Assembly (NCBI GenBank): GCA_009886755.1
Contig: QXYU01000046.1
Location: forward strand, 1 to 64,000
Direction: 5' to 3'
DNA length: 64,000 nt
Origin: Flavobacteriaceae bacterium
GTDB taxonomy: Bacteria > Bacteroidota > Bacteroidia > Flavobacteriales > Flavobacteriaceae
The notes under the pieces are model-generated. The model was not told where the DNA came from, ran no database searches, and was given only the letters and a program-made list of their open reading frames with translations. Below are positions 3,289-9,103 of the stretch, piece after piece. The position numbers and the translations under genes were made by a program. Within the stretch, counting starts at the first letter, position 1. Every line of letters begins with the position of its first letter.

Positions 3289-3319
3289 TTTGACCTAAAT
3301 ATAGCGTATCTTTAGGCTT

Positions 3320-4345
3320 GTGAAGTTAGTACGATTTCTTTTGTTTCCCCTAGCATTTCTTTACGGTGCCATCTTGGAAGTGCGCAACCGTCTTTTTGAT
3401 GTGGGTTATCTATCCTCTAAGACCTTTGCAATCCCATTGATTGGTGTGGGAAATCTCGCAACCGGCGGGACGGGTAAATCGGTAGTGATCGACTATCTGC
3501 TTTCGCACTTCAAAGATCGTTATTCGTTGGCAACCTTGAGTCGAGGATATGGACGATCTACCCAAGGGGTTCTTTTCGGAGATGAGAATGCTACGGCTAA
3601 AACCCTGGGAGACGAGCCCTATCAATTTCTTTCCAAGCACCCTGAAGTAACGGTTGTCGTTGCAGAAAAAAGAGTGGCAGGTATAGAGATGCTTTTGAAT
3701 CAAAAACCGCACATGCAAGCTGTTCTTCTGGATGATGTACTCCAACACCGTTGGATAAAACCCCAACTTCAGATTCTAACAACCACTTTTCAAAATCCCT
3801 ATTCTAAAGATTATTTGGTTCCGGTTGGAAATCTTCGGGAAAGGAGAAAGGGAGCCCACCGTGCCAATATCATATTGGTTACCAAAACACCCAGTGATGC
3901 TTCAAGAGATGCCATCGAAAGTGTCCGAAGCTCGCTTGGAAAGGCACCCCATCAGAACATCTATTTTTGTGCTATAGGATATTCCGATCTGGTATTGGGC
4001 ATAAAACAGGAGCGTCTTATGGATTTTGAATCTGACCCTTTTCTTCTAGTGACAGGAATTGCTAATGCAGCCCCATTGGTAGCCTTTCTCCAGAAAAAAA
4101 AGTTGCACTTTGAGCATTTGGAATATCCCGATCATTATGATTTCCCCCCCGCATCCATTAAAAAAATACAAGCCAAAGCAGCATCAAAGAAAATTCTTAC
4201 AACTGAAAAAGATTATGGTCGATTGAGACCATTGTTGCCAGCAACAACCTCACTGTATTATTTACCCATCCATCTTCAATTTTTAAATGGGGAAGAAGAG
4301 CAATCTTTTTTGAGTCAGATCGAAGCCCAGTTACAGCAGAATTAG
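3320..4345 (+). CDS. lpxK: Tetraacyldisaccharide 4'-kinase (lipid A biosynthesis)
   Basis: 341 residues; phosphorylates the 4' position of the lipid A disaccharide precursor at the inner membrane. The N-terminal hydrophobic segment (residues 5-20) is followed by the Walker A-type motif VGNLATGGTGKS (~43-54). Later come T-L-S-R-G-Y-G-R, L-L-D-D-V-L-Q-H-R and T-T-E-K-D-Y-G-R-L, all typical of LpxK. The start is GTG at 3320, placing the conserved M/V-K-L-V-R at the N-terminus. A TATCTTTA box ends at 3314, so the mRNA may have almost no leader. The stop codon interlocks with that of lipA on the other strand. Confidence 0.92.
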   Translation: MKLVRFLLFPLAFLYGAILEVRNRLFDVGYLSSKTFAIPLIGVGNLATGGTGKSVVIDYLLSHFKDRYSLATLSRGYGRSTQGVLFGDENATAKTLGDEPYQFLSKHPEVTVVVAEKRVAGIEMLLNQKPHMQAVLLDDVLQHRWIKPQLQILTTTFQNPYSKDYLVPVGNLRERRKGAHRANIILVTKTPSDASRDAIESVRSSLGKAPHQNIYFCAIGYSDLVLGIKQERLMDFESDPFLLVTGIANAAPLVAFLQKKKLHFEHLEYPDHYDFPPASIKKIQAKAASKKILTTEKDYGRLRPLLPATTSLYYLPIHLQFLNGEEEQSFLSQIEAQLQQN

Positions 4346-5220
4346 TCAATGTGTTTGTGAGCCTTGTAAGAAGAGCGAACTAAAGGGCTGCTTTCTACAT
4401 GACGAAAGCCTAAATCTAAGGCATAGGTTTCGTATTCTTTAAACTCTTCAGGGTTAATAAAACGCGACACCGGAAGGTGTTTTTTGGAAGGCTGTAAGTA
4501 TTGTCCAATGGTAACGACATCAACATGATGGGTACGGAGGTCTTCCAGCGTTTGTAAGACTTCTTCACGGGCCTCACCCAATCCAAGCATAATTCCAGAC
4601 TTGGTTCTATTGATACCCTGTCGTTTCAAATAGCTAAGGACTTCAAGACTTTGGTCGTATTTGGCCTGAACCCGAACTTGACGAGTGAGTCGGCGAACGG
4701 TCTCCACATTATGTGACACCACTTCGGGAGCTACGGCTATGATCCGGTCGATATTTCTTTCATTACCTTGAAAGTCTGGAATTAGGGCTTCAAGGGTCGT
4801 ATTGGGATTTAGTCTTCGAATGGCGTTAACCGTTTCAGCCCAAAGAATGGAGCCCATATCTTTCAAGTCATCTCGATCAACAGAAGTAATCACAGCATGC
4901 TTGATCTGCATCAATTTGATCGACCGTGCCACTTTATCGGGTTCGTCCCAATCGACGTTTCCGGGACGTCCTGTCTGAACCCCGCAAAAGCCACAAGAAC
5001 GCGTGCATATGTTTCCTAAAATCATAAAAGTAGCGGTGCCTTCTGACCAGCATTCCCCCATATTCGGGCAGCTTCCAGAAGTACAGATGGTGTGCAGATC
5101 GTACTTGTCGACCAAACTTCTTAACTCGGTGTATTTTTTGCCCGTTGGTAACTTTACCCGAATCCATTTGGGTTTCTCCACGCGCTTCATTCCTTTCTCT
5201 ACTTTTTCCAAATGTTCCAT
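4342..5220 (-). CDS. lipA: Lipoyl synthase (radical SAM)
   Basis: 292 residues, normal length. It inserts two sulfur atoms into protein-bound octanoyl groups, using one [4Fe-4S] cluster for radical SAM chemistry and a second as sulfur donor. Both cluster motifs are visible: C46-x4-C51-x5-C57 for the auxiliary cluster and C72-x3-C76-x2-C79 for the radical SAM cluster. The C-terminal R-S-S-Y motif, whose Ser ligates the auxiliary cluster, is present in L-V-R-S-S-Y-K. It supplies lipoate to 2-oxoacid dehydrogenases such as the one represented by pdhB at 23.9 kb. Its stop overlaps that of lpxK by 4 bases. Confidence 0.96.
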   Translation of the reverse strand: MEHLEKVEKGMKRVEKPKWIRVKLPTGKKYTELRSLVDKYDLHTICTSGSCPNMGECWSEGTATFMILGNICTRSCGFCGVQTGRPGNVDWDEPDKVARSIKLMQIKHAVITSVDRDDLKDMGSILWAETVNAIRRLNPNTTLEALIPDFQGNERNIDRIIAVAPEVVSHNVETVRRLTRQVRVQAKYDQSLEVLSYLKRQGINRTKSGIMLGLGEAREEVLQTLEDLRTHHVDVVTIGQYLQPSKKHLPVSRFINPEEFKEYETYALDLGFRHVESSPLVRSSYKAHKHID

Positions 5221-5238
5221 GGGTCAAAGATAAAACTA

Positions 5239-6456
5239 TTACAGCAGACTCAAAAGATAGAATAGTGCGAAAGCTGTGAGGAAAACAATCCCAATTCGAC
5301 TCAGCCAACGCATGACTGTGTTAGGTTGCGCTTCCTTAGGCATGTGAGAACTGGTGACCAAAAAATAATTTAATATCGCAAACAAAGGGGCCGTAATAAA
5401 AGACAAAATGGTTGCAATTTGCACTAAAGTGCCCATTTCTGACAAAAAGAAAAAGAAAATGGAAAGGGTGCCGATACTTAGAACAAGTATCCAAAACAGG
5501 TAACGGTCTTTTTTTTGATTCCAAAGTAATTTTCCGATTTGCGACATCACTCTAGGGGAAGCATCCAGCGTGGTCAGTGTGGTGCTAAACATTGTTGTCA
5601 ATGCTGCCAGTCCGATGATTCCGTAAAAGGCGACCCCGAGATTGGAGGTATAAAGTGCAATCAGTTGTCCAGCAAACACAGTACCTGAATTGGAGAACTC
5701 AAGACCTGATTCGAACATGACCGTAGCCCCCAACCCCATAAAACAAATCCCTAGAAAAACAGTTGTCCAGTAACCGACTTTGAAATCAAAAAGGCCTTCG
5801 GATAAATTGAGTTTGTCTTTGACACTGCGCTTTTTTTCCAATGTCCATAAGGAGTGCCAGATAGAAATGTCCATGGGAGCTGGCATCCATCCCATAAAGG
5901 CTGCTAAAAATAATAAGCCTTCGTTGGCTGGAAAAATTTGAGTGAGCTTGGTCGGTGAGGCATCGTTTCCTAGGGCGATGCTGAAACTAACAACACTGCA
6001 AATCGTTAGGACTAGAATGATGATTTTGATGACACGATCCAAAATGGTGTAACGTCCGATAATTAAAATGAGTAGACAAATCCCTGTAATGATAGCACTC
6101 CAAATCCCCAAGTTGGTTGTGAAACCAAATAGTTCCGAAGCAATACCCGCTGTGACAATGGTGACAGCGGTTTGAACGGTGAACATAGTGGCGATATTTA
6201 ACACAAAGTAGAGCCATAGCAAGGGTTTTCCTAATTTGAAATAACCCTGGAGAAGATTTTCGTTGGTTGCCAAAGCATAACGTGGGCCGTATTGAAAAAA
6301 GGGATATTTGAAAAGGTTGACCAAAAGCAACGCCCAGAGAAGCCCCCAGCCATAATCAGCGCCCGCACGAGTGGATTGTACCAAATGCGAAACTCCTATA
6401 GCAGCCCCAGCAAATAAAAGACCGGGTCCGAGCTTGGCGAAAATCTTATGCTTCAT
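5239..6456 (-). CDS. Nramp-related membrane transporter lacking the canonical DPGN motif
   Basis: 405 residues with about 11 hydrophobic segments and an Nramp/LeuT-type layout. Helix 1 reads G-P-G-L-L-F-A-G-A-A-I-G-V-S-H where metal transporters have D-P-G-N, and helix 6 reads M-P-A-P-M-D instead of M-P-H. The Asp, Asn and Met that bind Mn2+/Fe2+ are therefore missing and the substrate cannot be predicted. The start was set at ATG 6456, which overlaps the sigma-factor stop (ATGA, 6456-6453); an upstream in-frame Met would lie inside the sigma gene. The overlap implies translational coupling to the sigma factor. Relatives in Flavobacteriaceae share these substitutions, as far as I recall. Confidence 0.8.
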   Translation of the reverse strand: MKHKIFAKLGPGLLFAGAAIGVSHLVQSTRAGADYGWGLLWALLLVNLFKYPFFQYGPRYALATNENLLQGYFKLGKPLLWLYFVLNIATMFTVQTAVTIVTAGIASELFGFTTNLGIWSAIITGICLLILIIGRYTILDRVIKIIILVLTICSVVSFSIALGNDASPTKLTQIFPANEGLLFLAAFMGWMPAPMDISIWHSLWTLEKKRSVKDKLNLSEGLFDFKVGYWTTVFLGICFMGLGATVMFESGLEFSNSGTVFAGQLIALYTSNLGVAFYGIIGLAALTTMFSTTLTTLDASPRVMSQIGKLLWNQKKDRYLFWILVLSIGTLSIFFFFLSEMGTLVQIATILSFITAPLFAILNYFLVTSSHMPKEAQPNTVMRWLSRIGIVFLTAFALFYLLSLL

Positions 6457-6992
6457 AGATTTAGTTTTTCGGCCAACAACTTTTTGGCGCGGAACAATTT
6501 CACTTTGATGGTGCTCAGGGGTTGATTGCAATGTTGCGCCAGTGCGTTGTAGGTATACCCTTCAAAATAGCGCAATTGGATTAATTGACGGTAGTCAGGA
6601 GCCAGCGATTGGATATGTACCAGAAGACTTTCCAATTTTTGATTGGCGATCATTTCCTCTTCAGGGCTGAGTTGGGCACGTTCCCATTCGGGAACTTCGG
6701 CCATTGTTTCGGTTAATTTCGATTTTTGGGTTTGGGTTTGACGTTGCTGGTCAATCCACAAATTAAGAGCAATGGAAACAAGCCATGTGGAGAACCGAGC
6801 CTTTCGGTCAAATTGGTCAATTTTATCAAATGCCTTTGAAAAACACTGTACAGCTAATTCTTCAGAAAGTGGCGGGTTGTGGTTTTTTTTCAACAAATAC
6901 CCATAGACATAATCCCAATGAAGATCGAAGAGGTGATTGAAGGCGCGCTGATCGTTTTCAAGCGCATTGTCAAGTAGTTGCTTTACATCCAT
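6453..6992 (-). CDS. ECF-type RNA polymerase sigma factor
   Basis: 179 residues. Region 2 spans ~residues 20-85 (HLFDLHWDYVYGYL, then F-S-K-A-F-D-K-I and FSTWLVSIALNLWIDQ) and region 4 ~115-175 (LAPDYRQLIQLRYFEGYTY and S-T-I-K-V-K-L-F-R-A-K-K-L-L). Only these two domains are present, as in extracytoplasmic-function sigma factors. No anti-sigma gene is adjacent; instead the downstream gene is the Nramp-like transporter, coupled by a 4-base overlap. The sigma factor may control that transporter or respond to what it transports, but this is inference. Confidence 0.9.
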   Translation of the reverse strand: MDVKQLLDNALENDQRAFNHLFDLHWDYVYGYLLKKNHNPPLSEELAVQCFSKAFDKIDQFDRKARFSTWLVSIALNLWIDQQRQTQTQKSKLTETMAEVPEWERAQLSPEEEMIANQKLESLLVHIQSLAPDYRQLIQLRYFEGYTYNALAQHCNQPLSTIKVKLFRAKKLLAEKLNL

Positions 6993-7024
6993 AGGATCGC
7001 CTAAGGCACCTCAAAATAAAAAAA

Positions 7025-7231
7025 TTAATTGAGTTGCGGATCAGTCTTTCGGCATTCTTGTTCTGTAGGAAGTTTCCCACAATACCCACAAGGTTCATTC
7101 TCTTTATTCAAGAATGGAGACTGACTGGCACAGGTTCCAGCAAATTCACCATCTTTTTTAGCCCAAATTTTAATAGCAATACCAGCACATGCTATAGCTA
7201 GGAGTCCAAAAGTGAGTAGGAATAGTTTCAT
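7025..7231 (-). CDS. Small single-pass membrane protein with C-terminal cysteines
   Basis: 68 residues. A hydrophobic helix (residues ~2-20, F-L-L-T-F-G-L-L-A-I-A-C-A-G-I-A) is followed by I-K-I-W-A-K-K-D-G and a short tail with C-A-S-Q, C-G-Y-C and E-C. The tail could bind a metal or form disulfides. Proteins of this shape are conserved in Flavobacteriia but have no assigned function. The start at ATG 7231 is preferred over a GTG at 7246, which lies next to a possible -7 box. Confidence 0.6.
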   Translation of the reverse strand: MKLFLLTFGLLAIACAGIAIKIWAKKDGEFAGTCASQSPFLNKENEPCGYCGKLPTEQECRKTDPQLN

Positions 7232-7495
7232 AGGGTAAAAATACACAAACTTTATAAAAGCAATCGTCTCTAAATTGTAGGACTTGTCTTACAGTTGCGG
7301 AAGGGTTAAGTCAACCAAATTTCACGAAATCATATCCGAAAGCAGTAATAAACCCAAATCCCTCTATGCTTCACTAATTATTCTTAACAACTACAGTTCA
7401 AGTGACTGTAACCAACACAATTACATTTTTCAATAAATAAATATAGTGTTGTGGTTTGATTGAAAAACGAGAATATTTAGGGAGCGAGGGATTTT
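7232..7495. other. Intergenic stretch, no gene seen
   Basis: AT-rich. The only structure noticed is a 6-bp hairpin, TACAGT (7392-7397) / ACTGTA (7405-7410), without a T run. I see no coding frame or promoter worth naming. Confidence 0.5.
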
Positions 7496-7987
7496 TTACA
7501 ATACAAATTGGTAGCAGATTCTGACTAAGAAAAAAACATAAACTAGAGAAACACTGAACTTGAGAAAAACACCAGTGAGAAACCCTATCAAGGAACCTAA
7601 AGCAGATTTTAGGGCCATTTTTTTATCTTTTGGGTTTTGACTGAGTTCTCCTGCAAAAGCGCCTAAAAAAGGCCCGAAAACAATCCCCAAAGGACCTAAA
7701 AACAGTAAGCCAATCACCAAGCCTATGGTGGAGCCTATCATCCCACTTTTTGTCCCCCCAAATTGTTTGGTCCCCAACATAGGGATTATATAGTCTAATA
7801 AAAATACCCCAAGTGCAATGGCAAAAGTTACTATGAGAAAATTTTTATCCATGGGAACCCAATCGGTAAGGTGAAGCAGCAGCAGCCCAAGCCAACTAGT
7901 GATTGGACCGGGAATGACAGGCAAAAAACTCCCTGCAATCCCCAATAGGGCAAGTAAAATTCCAGAAAAAAGCAGTACTAAATCCAT
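7496..7987 (-). CDS. DUF456 family membrane protein
   Basis: 163 residues with four to five hydrophobic, glycine-rich helices. The N-terminal segment LLALLGIAGSFLPVIPGP and the middle G-P-L-G-I-V-F-G-P-F-L-G-A-F-A-G-E are characteristic of DUF456, a small integral membrane family of unknown function that may contain a glycine-zipper pore-like bundle. It starts at ATG 7987 and is divergent from the lipoprotein-ruvC operon. Confidence 0.82.
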   Translation of the reverse strand: MDLVLLFSGILLALLGIAGSFLPVIPGPITSWLGLLLLHLTDWVPMDKNFLIVTFAIALGVFLLDYIIPMLGTKQFGGTKSGMIGSTIGLVIGLLFLGPLGIVFGPFLGAFAGELSQNPKDKKMALKSALGSLIGFLTGVFLKFSVSLVYVFFLVRICYQFVL

Positions 7988-8002
7988 ACTATGAAAAGTG
8001 TC

Positions 8003-8033
8003 TTGACGAACTTAGAAAAAATGATTAATTTTA
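8003..8033 (+). promoter_or_regulatory. Promoter for the lipoprotein-ruvC-hemW operon
   Basis: TTG at 8003-8005, a 20-base spacer, then TAATTTTA at 8026-8033, one base from the Bacteroidota TAnnTTTG box. It argues that the ATG at 7991 is upstream of the transcript start and that translation begins at 8054. Confidence 0.5.
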
Positions 8034-8053
8034 GGCGTAAAAAACATCCAAAA

Positions 8054-8542
8054 ATGTATCGTTCAACTCATAAAATATTAAATCTATTTTTTTTCCTAAT
8101 TGTAATCGCTTCTTGTGATTCGTTTAACACAAAAGTTCCGGCATCAGAAATCAAGAAAGCCTCTGCTTGGTCAGACGCCGACCAGTTTCCTTCTTTTGAT
8201 AACTGCGAAGGACTGGAAGGTGAACAGTTACAGAAGTGTTTTGGAGATACTCTTGGAGAGCGTGTCACACAATACTTAGCTACGCAAGAATTGATTGCTG
8301 ATCGAGCTATTGATGCAGAAATTATTTTGGTGATTGCGATTGATAAAGAAGGAGCTATGAGCTTGAATTCAGTTGAAGATCCCAATTATGTACTTACTGA
8401 CGTGTCTGGCTTAGAGGATATCTTGACGCAGGCTGTTGCTGAAGTACCCAATGCGCTTCCTGCCGTAAAGACTAATGCAGATGCACGTGTATCGGTATCA
8501 TTAAAGCTTCCCGTTCAGATTGTGGCGCAGCCTGCCGAATAA
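8054..8542 (+). CDS. Predicted lipoprotein of unknown function
   Basis: 162 residues from ATG 8054. The N-terminus is a lipoprotein signal (I-L-N-L-F-F-F-L-I-V-I-A-S-C) with the lipobox I-A-S-C, so Cys ~20 should be lipidated. The mature part has C-E-G-L and K-C-F-G, two cysteines that may pair, then a domain with I-I-L-V-I-A-I-D-K-E-G and V-S-V-S-L-K-L-P-V. This alternation resembles the C-terminal fold of TonB-like proteins, but I do not claim membership. The TAA stop shares its last A with the ATG of ruvC, so the two are cotranslated. An ATG at 7991 is rejected because it precedes the promoter and would bury the lipobox. Confidence 0.7.
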   Translation: MYRSTHKILNLFFFLIVIASCDSFNTKVPASEIKKASAWSDADQFPSFDNCEGLEGEQLQKCFGDTLGERVTQYLATQELIADRAIDAEIILVIAIDKEGAMSLNSVEDPNYVLTDVSGLEDILTQAVAEVPNALPAVKTNADARVSVSLKLPVQIVAQPAE

Positions 8543-9096
8543 TGGCAGATGAGAAAATCATCCTTGGGATTGATCCTGGAACCACCATTATGGGATTTGG
8601 ATTGATTCGGGTTATTAAAGGGCAAATGGAACTTATCCAAATGCACGAATTACAGCTTAGTAAATACGGGACGCATTACCTAAAGCTAAAGCAAATCTAT
8701 AAACGGACGGCTGAAATCATAGAGGCACACCTCCCCGATGAAATTGCTATTGAAGCTCCGTTTTTTGGCAAAAATGTACAATCCATGTTAAAATTGGGGC
8801 GTGCTCAAGGGGTTGCAATGGCTGCGGGACTCAATCGAGAAATTCCTATCACAGAATATTCTCCCAAAAAAATTAAAATGGCCATTACAGGTAATGGGAA
8901 TGCATCTAAGGAGCAAGTTGCTAAGATGCTGATGAGTATGCTCAAAATTAAGGAGATGCCCAAAAATCTTGACTCAACCGATGGTTTGGCTGCTGCGGTT
9001 TGTCATTTCTACAACCAAGGGAGCATTACCCAAGGAAAGAAATATACTGGATGGAGTGCTTTTGTCAAGCAAAATCCTAAAAAAACCAATTCCTAA
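8542..9096 (+). CDS. ruvC: Holliday junction resolvase RuvC
   Basis: 184 residues, normal length. This dimeric endonuclease cuts Holliday junctions in concert with RuvAB. The RNase H-like fold shows its acidic catalytic residues: D in G-I-D-P-G-T-T (~11), E in A-I-E-A-P-F-F (~71) and the aspartates in L-D-S-T-D-G-L-A-A-A (~140-144). The phenylalanine that stacks in the junction is in A-P-F-F-G-K-N. It follows the lipoprotein gene with a 1-base overlap and precedes hemW by 7 bases. Confidence 0.95.
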   Translation: MADEKIILGIDPGTTIMGFGLIRVIKGQMELIQMHELQLSKYGTHYLKLKQIYKRTAEIIEAHLPDEIAIEAPFFGKNVQSMLKLGRAQGVAMAAGLNREIPITEYSPKKIKMAITGNGNASKEQVAKMLMSMLKIKEMPKNLDSTDGLAAAVCHFYNQGSITQGKKYTGWSAFVKQNPKKTNS

Positions 9097-9103
9097 ATAG
9101 GGT

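Follow-up and report, generated by a model that had tools for sequence, protein, structure and literature searches.

The closest described relatives of the transporter studied here are proteins of the Nramp metal-transporter family. Canonical members carry the D-P-G-N motif (DxxN) on TM1 and a histidine on TM6. Asp56 of DraNramp is described as strictly required for Mn transport, the D56G variant being inactive (PMC13060092). The NRMT have the signature DxxG-TxxA/T, and their description indicates that a rebuilt site can change the choice of cation while the Asp is retained (PMC8806188). They have been set apart from Slc11, as has an outgroup (PMC9606685). The Nramp-related proteins are presented as paraphyletic, mostly uncharacterised, and lacking the canonical motifs (PMC12873925). 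MumT is reported as a protein of the NRAMP family that raises the Mn content of cells, even with less than 25% identity to reported NRAMPs (PMC5050338). Here, we analysed a locus in which a gene for such a transporter overlaps that of an ECF sigma factor, in a Flavobacteriaceae genome of 1.78 Mb in 51 contigs. Our literature search found no paper on this sigma-transporter pair. The transporter belongs to a conserved and, as it seems, unstudied branch of the Nramp family.

Gene order and overlapping frames

The two genes are on the minus strand of the window (the whole stretch of 64,000 nt that was analysed), in the order DUF456, SML, sigma, transporter, lipA. Protein-family scans (Pfam, NCBIfam) took in six proteins around the site. 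The DUF456 gene (7496-7987), named from these scans, is separated by 264 nt (7232..7495), the likely promoter region of an operon, from a gene encoding a protein of 68 aa that we call SML (7025..7231). SML has a single hydrophobic stretch followed by C-x13-C-x2-C-x8-C, looks membrane-anchored, and matched no Pfam or NCBIfam family. Then come the genes for the ECF sigma-70 family factor (6453..6992, 179 aa), the Nramp-related transporter (5239..6456, 405 aa), and the lipoyl synthase LipA (4342..5220; TIGR00510, 362.6 bits for a cut-off of 310.25). Since only 32 nt separate SML from sigma and 18 nt the transporter from lipA, the genes from SML through lipA look like a single operon. The cluster of Flavobacteriaceae is laid out as SML-[GT2]-sigma-[transporter]-lipA, where brackets mark optional genes and GT2 is a glycosyltransferase-like gene named by reading its sequence. 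SML relatives occupy the equivalent neighbourhood in other genomes. No Rfam family reached its gathering score at 3300-9100.

An earlier reading of this DNA, made from the sequence only, had noticed that the sigma stop and the transporter start share ATGA. This is indeed the case (6453..6456, minus strand): the sigma TGA is at 6455-6453 and the transporter ATG at 6456-6454. Taken alone, such an overlap is ordinary, as overlaps of 4 nt occur in seven of the 33 codirectional ORF pairs of the window, the sigma/transporter pair counted in. We gathered 89 loci (G loci), in which the same genomes were repeated and 11 sigma factors recurred. Deduplication resulted in 79 distinct sigma-transporter pairs, window included, with an assignable start in 78. 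The frames overlapped at 54 of these 78 junctions (by 4 nt at 23 of them and by a single nucleotide at 14); another 19 were spaced by 0-50 nt, and five were wider. Two pairs are ~900 nt apart, and in one of these (L072) a 293-aa ORF (4446-5327) that has hydrophobic stretches and no Pfam match lies between sigma and transporter.

GT2 is the gene 5' of sigma in most relatives. Among 96 pairs of GT2 and sigma, 84 share exactly 10 nt, and sigma starts with TTG in 77 of these. In this fixed junction, seen for example in L036, L038, L039 and L044, the sigma start lies within the stop region of GT2. Such a conserved weak start could restrict the synthesis of the sigma factor. The GT2/sigma junction and the other overlaps together indicate that overlap is a property of the cluster, whose gene order is likewise widely conserved.

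Conservation and separation of the pair

We surveyed 149 genomes of the same family (Flavobacteriaceae), defining close transporters by E < 1e-120 and sigma homologues by E <= 1e-15. An intact close transporter was found in 80 genomes and a sigma homologue in 141. The sequence-only reading had regarded separation of the pair in most relatives as evidence against its view; the survey found the opposite, since 77 of the 80 genomes have sigma next to the transporter, upstream of it and in the same orientation. The remaining three had no sigma match at E <= 1e-15, and in all of them the transporter was preceded by SML and followed by lipA. Among 80 named loci, sigma was absent upstream in 13, of which 12 had SML directly before the transporter and lipA after it; this set and that of the three genomes have at least one locus in common.

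Many sigma factors were found away from any close transporter. There were 60 such genomes among the 141 with sigma, none with a remnant of the transporter gene. A copy 37-46% identical was encoded elsewhere in 25 of the 60, and none of these copies was found beside sigma. In the other 35, which have no sizeable GxSH copy, 30 have lipA after sigma and on its strand (25 of them within ~330 nt), and five showed no lipA. SML relatives were present in 33 of these 35 loci and in the three sigma-less transporter loci. Two genomes carry a damaged transporter: in G051 the match contains at least seven stops and the sigma frame is intact, and in G030 (L140 2126-10784) the gene is split by ~8.7 kb next to an open sigma frame. 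The G030 insert encodes transposase, TetR, phosphodiesterase, and SusC/SusD-type genes.

Neither sigma nor lipA was found beside the transporter in 21 loci from outside Flavobacteriaceae (among L161-L182), nor in 13 order-level loci, including one of the same family (L312), all with flanks of ~1.5 kb or less. In L160, also of the same family, SML lies directly 5' of the transporter and the sigma cluster is absent. In L087, one of the loci that we labelled 'mid', a sigma-like ORF two genes upstream clustered by BLAST with the window sigma. A DUF218/SanA-like gene is present in 8 of 17 'mid' loci and a haemolysin III-like gene in 12 loci, both identified by reading. We recognised no metal pathway in the gene neighbourhood of transporters elsewhere.

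The presence of the transporter changed 29 times on the sigma tree, for a mean of 33.0 in shuffled data; of 500 shuffles, 42 gave a count no higher than this. The resolution of the tree is poor, with 61 open branches among the 115 inner ones, and it took in three of the 25 sigma loci from genomes with a 'mid' transporter. Covariation between the partners is slight, a little above chance: the highest mutual information between a sigma column and the transporter label was 0.232, where permuted labels gave maxima of 0.218 (95%) and 0.26 (overall), with relatedness ignored. A single origin of the linkage is compatible with the transporter tree, the root of which is unreliable because the outgroups are too long. 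The simplest inference from these sequences would be a single cluster with repeated losses of the transporter and few losses of sigma. The conserved overlap should not be taken as mechanistic coupling, since the loss patterns show that the partners part.

Substrate site of the transporter

The transporter passes the cut-offs of PF01566 (53.2 bits, cut-off 29.8) and NF037982 (59.3, cut-off 50). The latter labels it a divalent metal transporter, although the canonical ligands are missing. The sequence-only reading had inferred the loss of D-P-G-N, and this motif of DraNramp is aligned to G21-V22-S23-H24 of TM1, with the Gly and the His in all 95 same-family copies (78 close and 17 distant, picked by similarity and not by motif). 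It had also described M-P-H as lost. This is accurate for the His, absent under every alignment, but not for M191-P192, which is present here (TM6 reads GWMPAPMD) and in the 95 copies. The register of TM6 depends on the aligner: HMMER and MAFFT set A193 opposite the metal-binding Met (Met230), whereas hhalign sets M191 there. The residue facing the Met of the TM6 A/C-x-x-M motif is therefore A193 or M191, and that facing the canonical His is M195 or A193. The protein lacks two canonical elements, D-P-G-N and the TM6 His. It also lacks the NRMT signature, since Gly replaces the TM1 Asp in it and in the 95 copies.

A different signature is conserved instead. The residues G21, S23, H24, K50, K144, W190, M191, P192, D298, and R302 are invariant in the 95 copies, which all have an acidic residue at position 196 of TM6. 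We aligned 161 rows, of which 123 (122 distinct) were chosen by G21 and H24, these two being therefore invariant by choice. This choice included 28 of the 66 rows that were not same-family copies of this set; they are in open frames, come mostly from Bacteroidota of other families, and also have GxSH, GWMP, and the TM6 acid (M191-P192 in 28 of 28). Position 196 is Asp in 108 of the 123 rows and Glu in 15. All 78 close copies have Asp, the 17 distant ones divide into 13 with Glu and four with Asp, and the 28 further rows into 26 with Asp and two with Glu. No acid is found at this position in the other 38 rows, which include an unrelated ORF of L283 that had strayed into the alignment. D196 may be no more than a helix N-cap. 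Most other Flavobacteriaceae copies that we aligned read IGPG or IGTG in place of GxSH. The window protein has no acid within the aligned TM3 stretch (84-104). The sequence-only reading had regarded clustering with canonical metal-transporting Nramps as evidence against its view; in our tree, the window protein did not group with the one canonical DPGN protein included.

The AlphaFold2 model of the transporter (42 alignment rows, pLDDT 88.2, pTM 0.88) has the Nramp (LeuT-type) fold. Its top match was DraNramp (6d91; Z 41.1, rmsd 2.8, 383 residues, 15% identity), and other matches were the NRMT 7qji (Z 33.5), the YcsG model 9a52 (Z 32.0), and AdiC (3l1l, Z 31.4). TM1 is predicted as one unbroken helix (11-35) and TM6 is broken at 190-196. 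As a control we modelled a protein of the same order that has DPGN (19 rows, pLDDT 83.1), in which TM1 is broken at 52-53, at Asp53, and TM6 at Met230; the TM1 contrast is one between predictions of unequal alignment depth (42 and 19 rows), with this protein as sole control. The transporter model has no cytosolic domain: its longest non-helical stretch has 14 residues, the N-terminal tail 10 and the C-terminal tail one.

The source genome encodes a second Nramp (L001 1408-2604; G000:C17:49893-50912). We considered it as a canonical MntH and rejected it, because it reads IGPG instead of DPGN; the genome has three matches to PF01566, and no DPGN Nramp was seen among them. Matches to PF01566 above 450 bits were found in only seven of the 149 same-family genomes (the reference DPGN protein scores 461 bits), and from the score these seven are presumably canonical Nramps. 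They are G037:C7, G100:C1, G117:C24, G127:C3, G128:C13, G133:C6, and G144:C25; their open frames, 626-648 aa long, suggest that an extra domain is fused to them. The IGPG of the second Nramp and the few high scorers make the loss of the TM1 Asp look common in Flavobacteriaceae.

Control of the sigma factor

The sigma factor passes the Pfam cut-offs for Sigma70_r2 (PF04542, 38.1 bits) and r4_2 (PF08281, 43.9 bits). No anti-sigma family of Pfam or NCBIfam matched any of the five neighbouring proteins that we scanned, the nearest being SML, LipA, and the DUF456 protein, which bears out the earlier remark that an anti-sigma gene is absent. We scanned the region upstream of SML for promoter-like motifs. 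In this crude scan, with repeated genomes included, the ECF-like AAC-N15-18-CGT occurred in 17 of 153 loci (shuffled mean 18.8) and the sigma-A-like TTG-N16-20-TAnnTTTG in 13 of 153 (3.1 in shuffles). Neither is present in the 264-nt gap of the window. A dyad scan upstream of SML gave only A/T-rich dyads.

Function of the pair

The explanation that we favour, with a probability of about 0.6, is that of a compact cluster encoding an autonomous sigma factor and an active Nramp-fold carrier, of a distinct clade and with a rebuilt site, whose coupling is not stoichiometric. Through the ATGA overlap, the two genes would be translationally coupled in the ordinary way and co-expressed, without forming a stoichiometric sensor, and co-translation of the compact operon would yield sigma, carrier, and LipA together. 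The sigma factor would work without the transporter and without an adjoining anti-sigma, and would probably be governed through its own synthesis. The strict conservation of the replacement signature suggests that the carrier is probably active, and it would operate by the rocking-bundle mechanism of the Nramp fold. In the predicted central site the TM1 Asp is gone, His24 is invariant, an Asp or Glu is found at the start of TM6b, and TM1 is not unwound; His24 and Asp/Glu196 probably stand in for the classical Asp/Asn ligands.

Could the transporter itself sense a signal or sequester the sigma factor, as the sequence-only reading proposed on account of a stoichiometric coupling? The survey argues against both: the 60 genomes with sigma and no close transporter, the loci without a sizeable GxSH copy in the genome where lipA follows sigma (30 of 35), and the three of 80 transporters lacking a detectable sigma show that each partner occurs without the other. 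Sensing by the carrier is unlikely because the model has no cytosolic domain, the partners are separable, and broken or split transporters stand beside intact sigma factors (G051, G030). One version of the idea makes the transporter the missing anti-sigma, a membrane sensor that holds sigma until the substrate comes. It would account for one-to-one overlapping genes and for the lack of an anti-sigma family match beside sigma. Yet, the predicted protein offers no cytosolic sigma-binding domain and at most 14 consecutive non-helical residues, sigma is retained in 60 genomes where the close transporter is missing, these genomes do not group together on the sigma tree, itself of poor resolution (29 changes for 33.0 in shuffled data), and covariation is only slight. 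We regard such a sensor as very improbable, and discarded the transporter as an anti-sigma given the dissociation of the pair and the missing domain. Alternatively, sigma might sense a shortage of substrate and transcribe the operon in which it lies, mainly so as to increase the amount of transporter, as a dedicated and autoregulated system for uptake; autoregulation of the transporter by sigma had also been suggested by the sequence-only reading. The near-fixed adjacency (77 of 80) would also be expected, and equally so, from a dedicated regulator and its target, and the 54 overlapping junctions in 78 fit as well. This scenario is nevertheless rather unlikely, as 60 of the 141 sigma genomes do without the close transporter, AAC-N15-18-CGT is no more frequent upstream of SML than in shuffled sequences in the crude scan, and the copies of other families do not have this sigma alongside.

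Concerning the substrate, the sequence-only reading had proposed that it may not be a divalent metal; the idea that it could differ from the classical Mn/Fe ions is reasonable. Our first guess would be that the favoured carrier probably transports a small or divalent cation, either other than Mn/Fe or with less selectivity than for Mn/Fe. The main rival, which is possible without being our preference, is that the protein carries no metal but, for instance, an organic solute. This would agree with the loss of an Asp on which Mn transport by DraNramp is reported to depend strictly (PMC13060092) and with a fold that AdiC (3l1l, Z 31.4) and other amino-acid transporters also have. However, the invariant His24 and the acid at position 196 could still bind a cation, the NRMT are described as altering cation choice with a rebuilt site, even if they keep the Asp (PMC8806188), and the divergent MumT is reported to raise cell Mn nonetheless (PMC5050338). 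That the protein is a degenerating Nramp remnant with no transport activity is hardly credible: the loss of the classical binding residues and the broken or split copies of G051 and G030 would be in keeping with decay, but the replacement signature is strict in the 95 same-family copies and recurs in 28 further rows, in open frames and mostly from other Bacteroidota families. Returning to an active carrier with a rebuilt site, a possible reading, though less likely than not, is that the substrate-binding carboxylate has shifted from the TM1 Asp to Asp/Glu196 of TM6, with TM1 not unwound and the invariant TM1 His completing the site. The GxSH proteins might then form a class of their own within the SLC11 superfamily, with a substrate not transported by any Nramp characterised so far. 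The replacement signature is fixed in many Bacteroidota, and knowing what the protein carries would reveal how the Nramp fold shifts specificity.

Comparison with known systems

The window sigma shares regions 2 and 4 with ECF sigma factors that have no neighbouring anti-sigma. It differs from them by its place in a SML/GT2/lipA cluster. The transporter has the fold of canonical Nramp/MntH proteins (DraNramp, BfraNramp), but neither their D-P-G-N nor their TM6 His, and its TM1 is unbroken in the model. It also shares this fold with the NRMT (EleNRMT, CabNRMT), and in one of the two alignments the Met position is occupied by Ala or Thr in many rows. The NRMT are described as retaining the TM1 Asp (PMC8806188), whereas the window protein has a Gly there and a His at the position of the Asn. 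With the Nramp-related proteins (PF01566 outside canonical SLC11), which include the 'G-motif 3' group of MntG/YcsG of B. subtilis, the window protein shares a match to PF01566, the Nramp fold, a Gly for the TM1 Asp, and the lack of an acid in the aligned TM3 stretch; YcsG itself was compared by its fold (9a52, Z 32.0). The window protein is distinguished by GxSH on TM1, where most other aligned copies of Flavobacteriaceae read IGPG or IGTG, and by G-W-M-P-x-x-x-D/E on TM6. By its sequence, the GxSH clade departs from canonical Nramps and from the NRMT signature alike, and may coincide with an unnamed group of the Nramp-related proteins described in PMC12873925.
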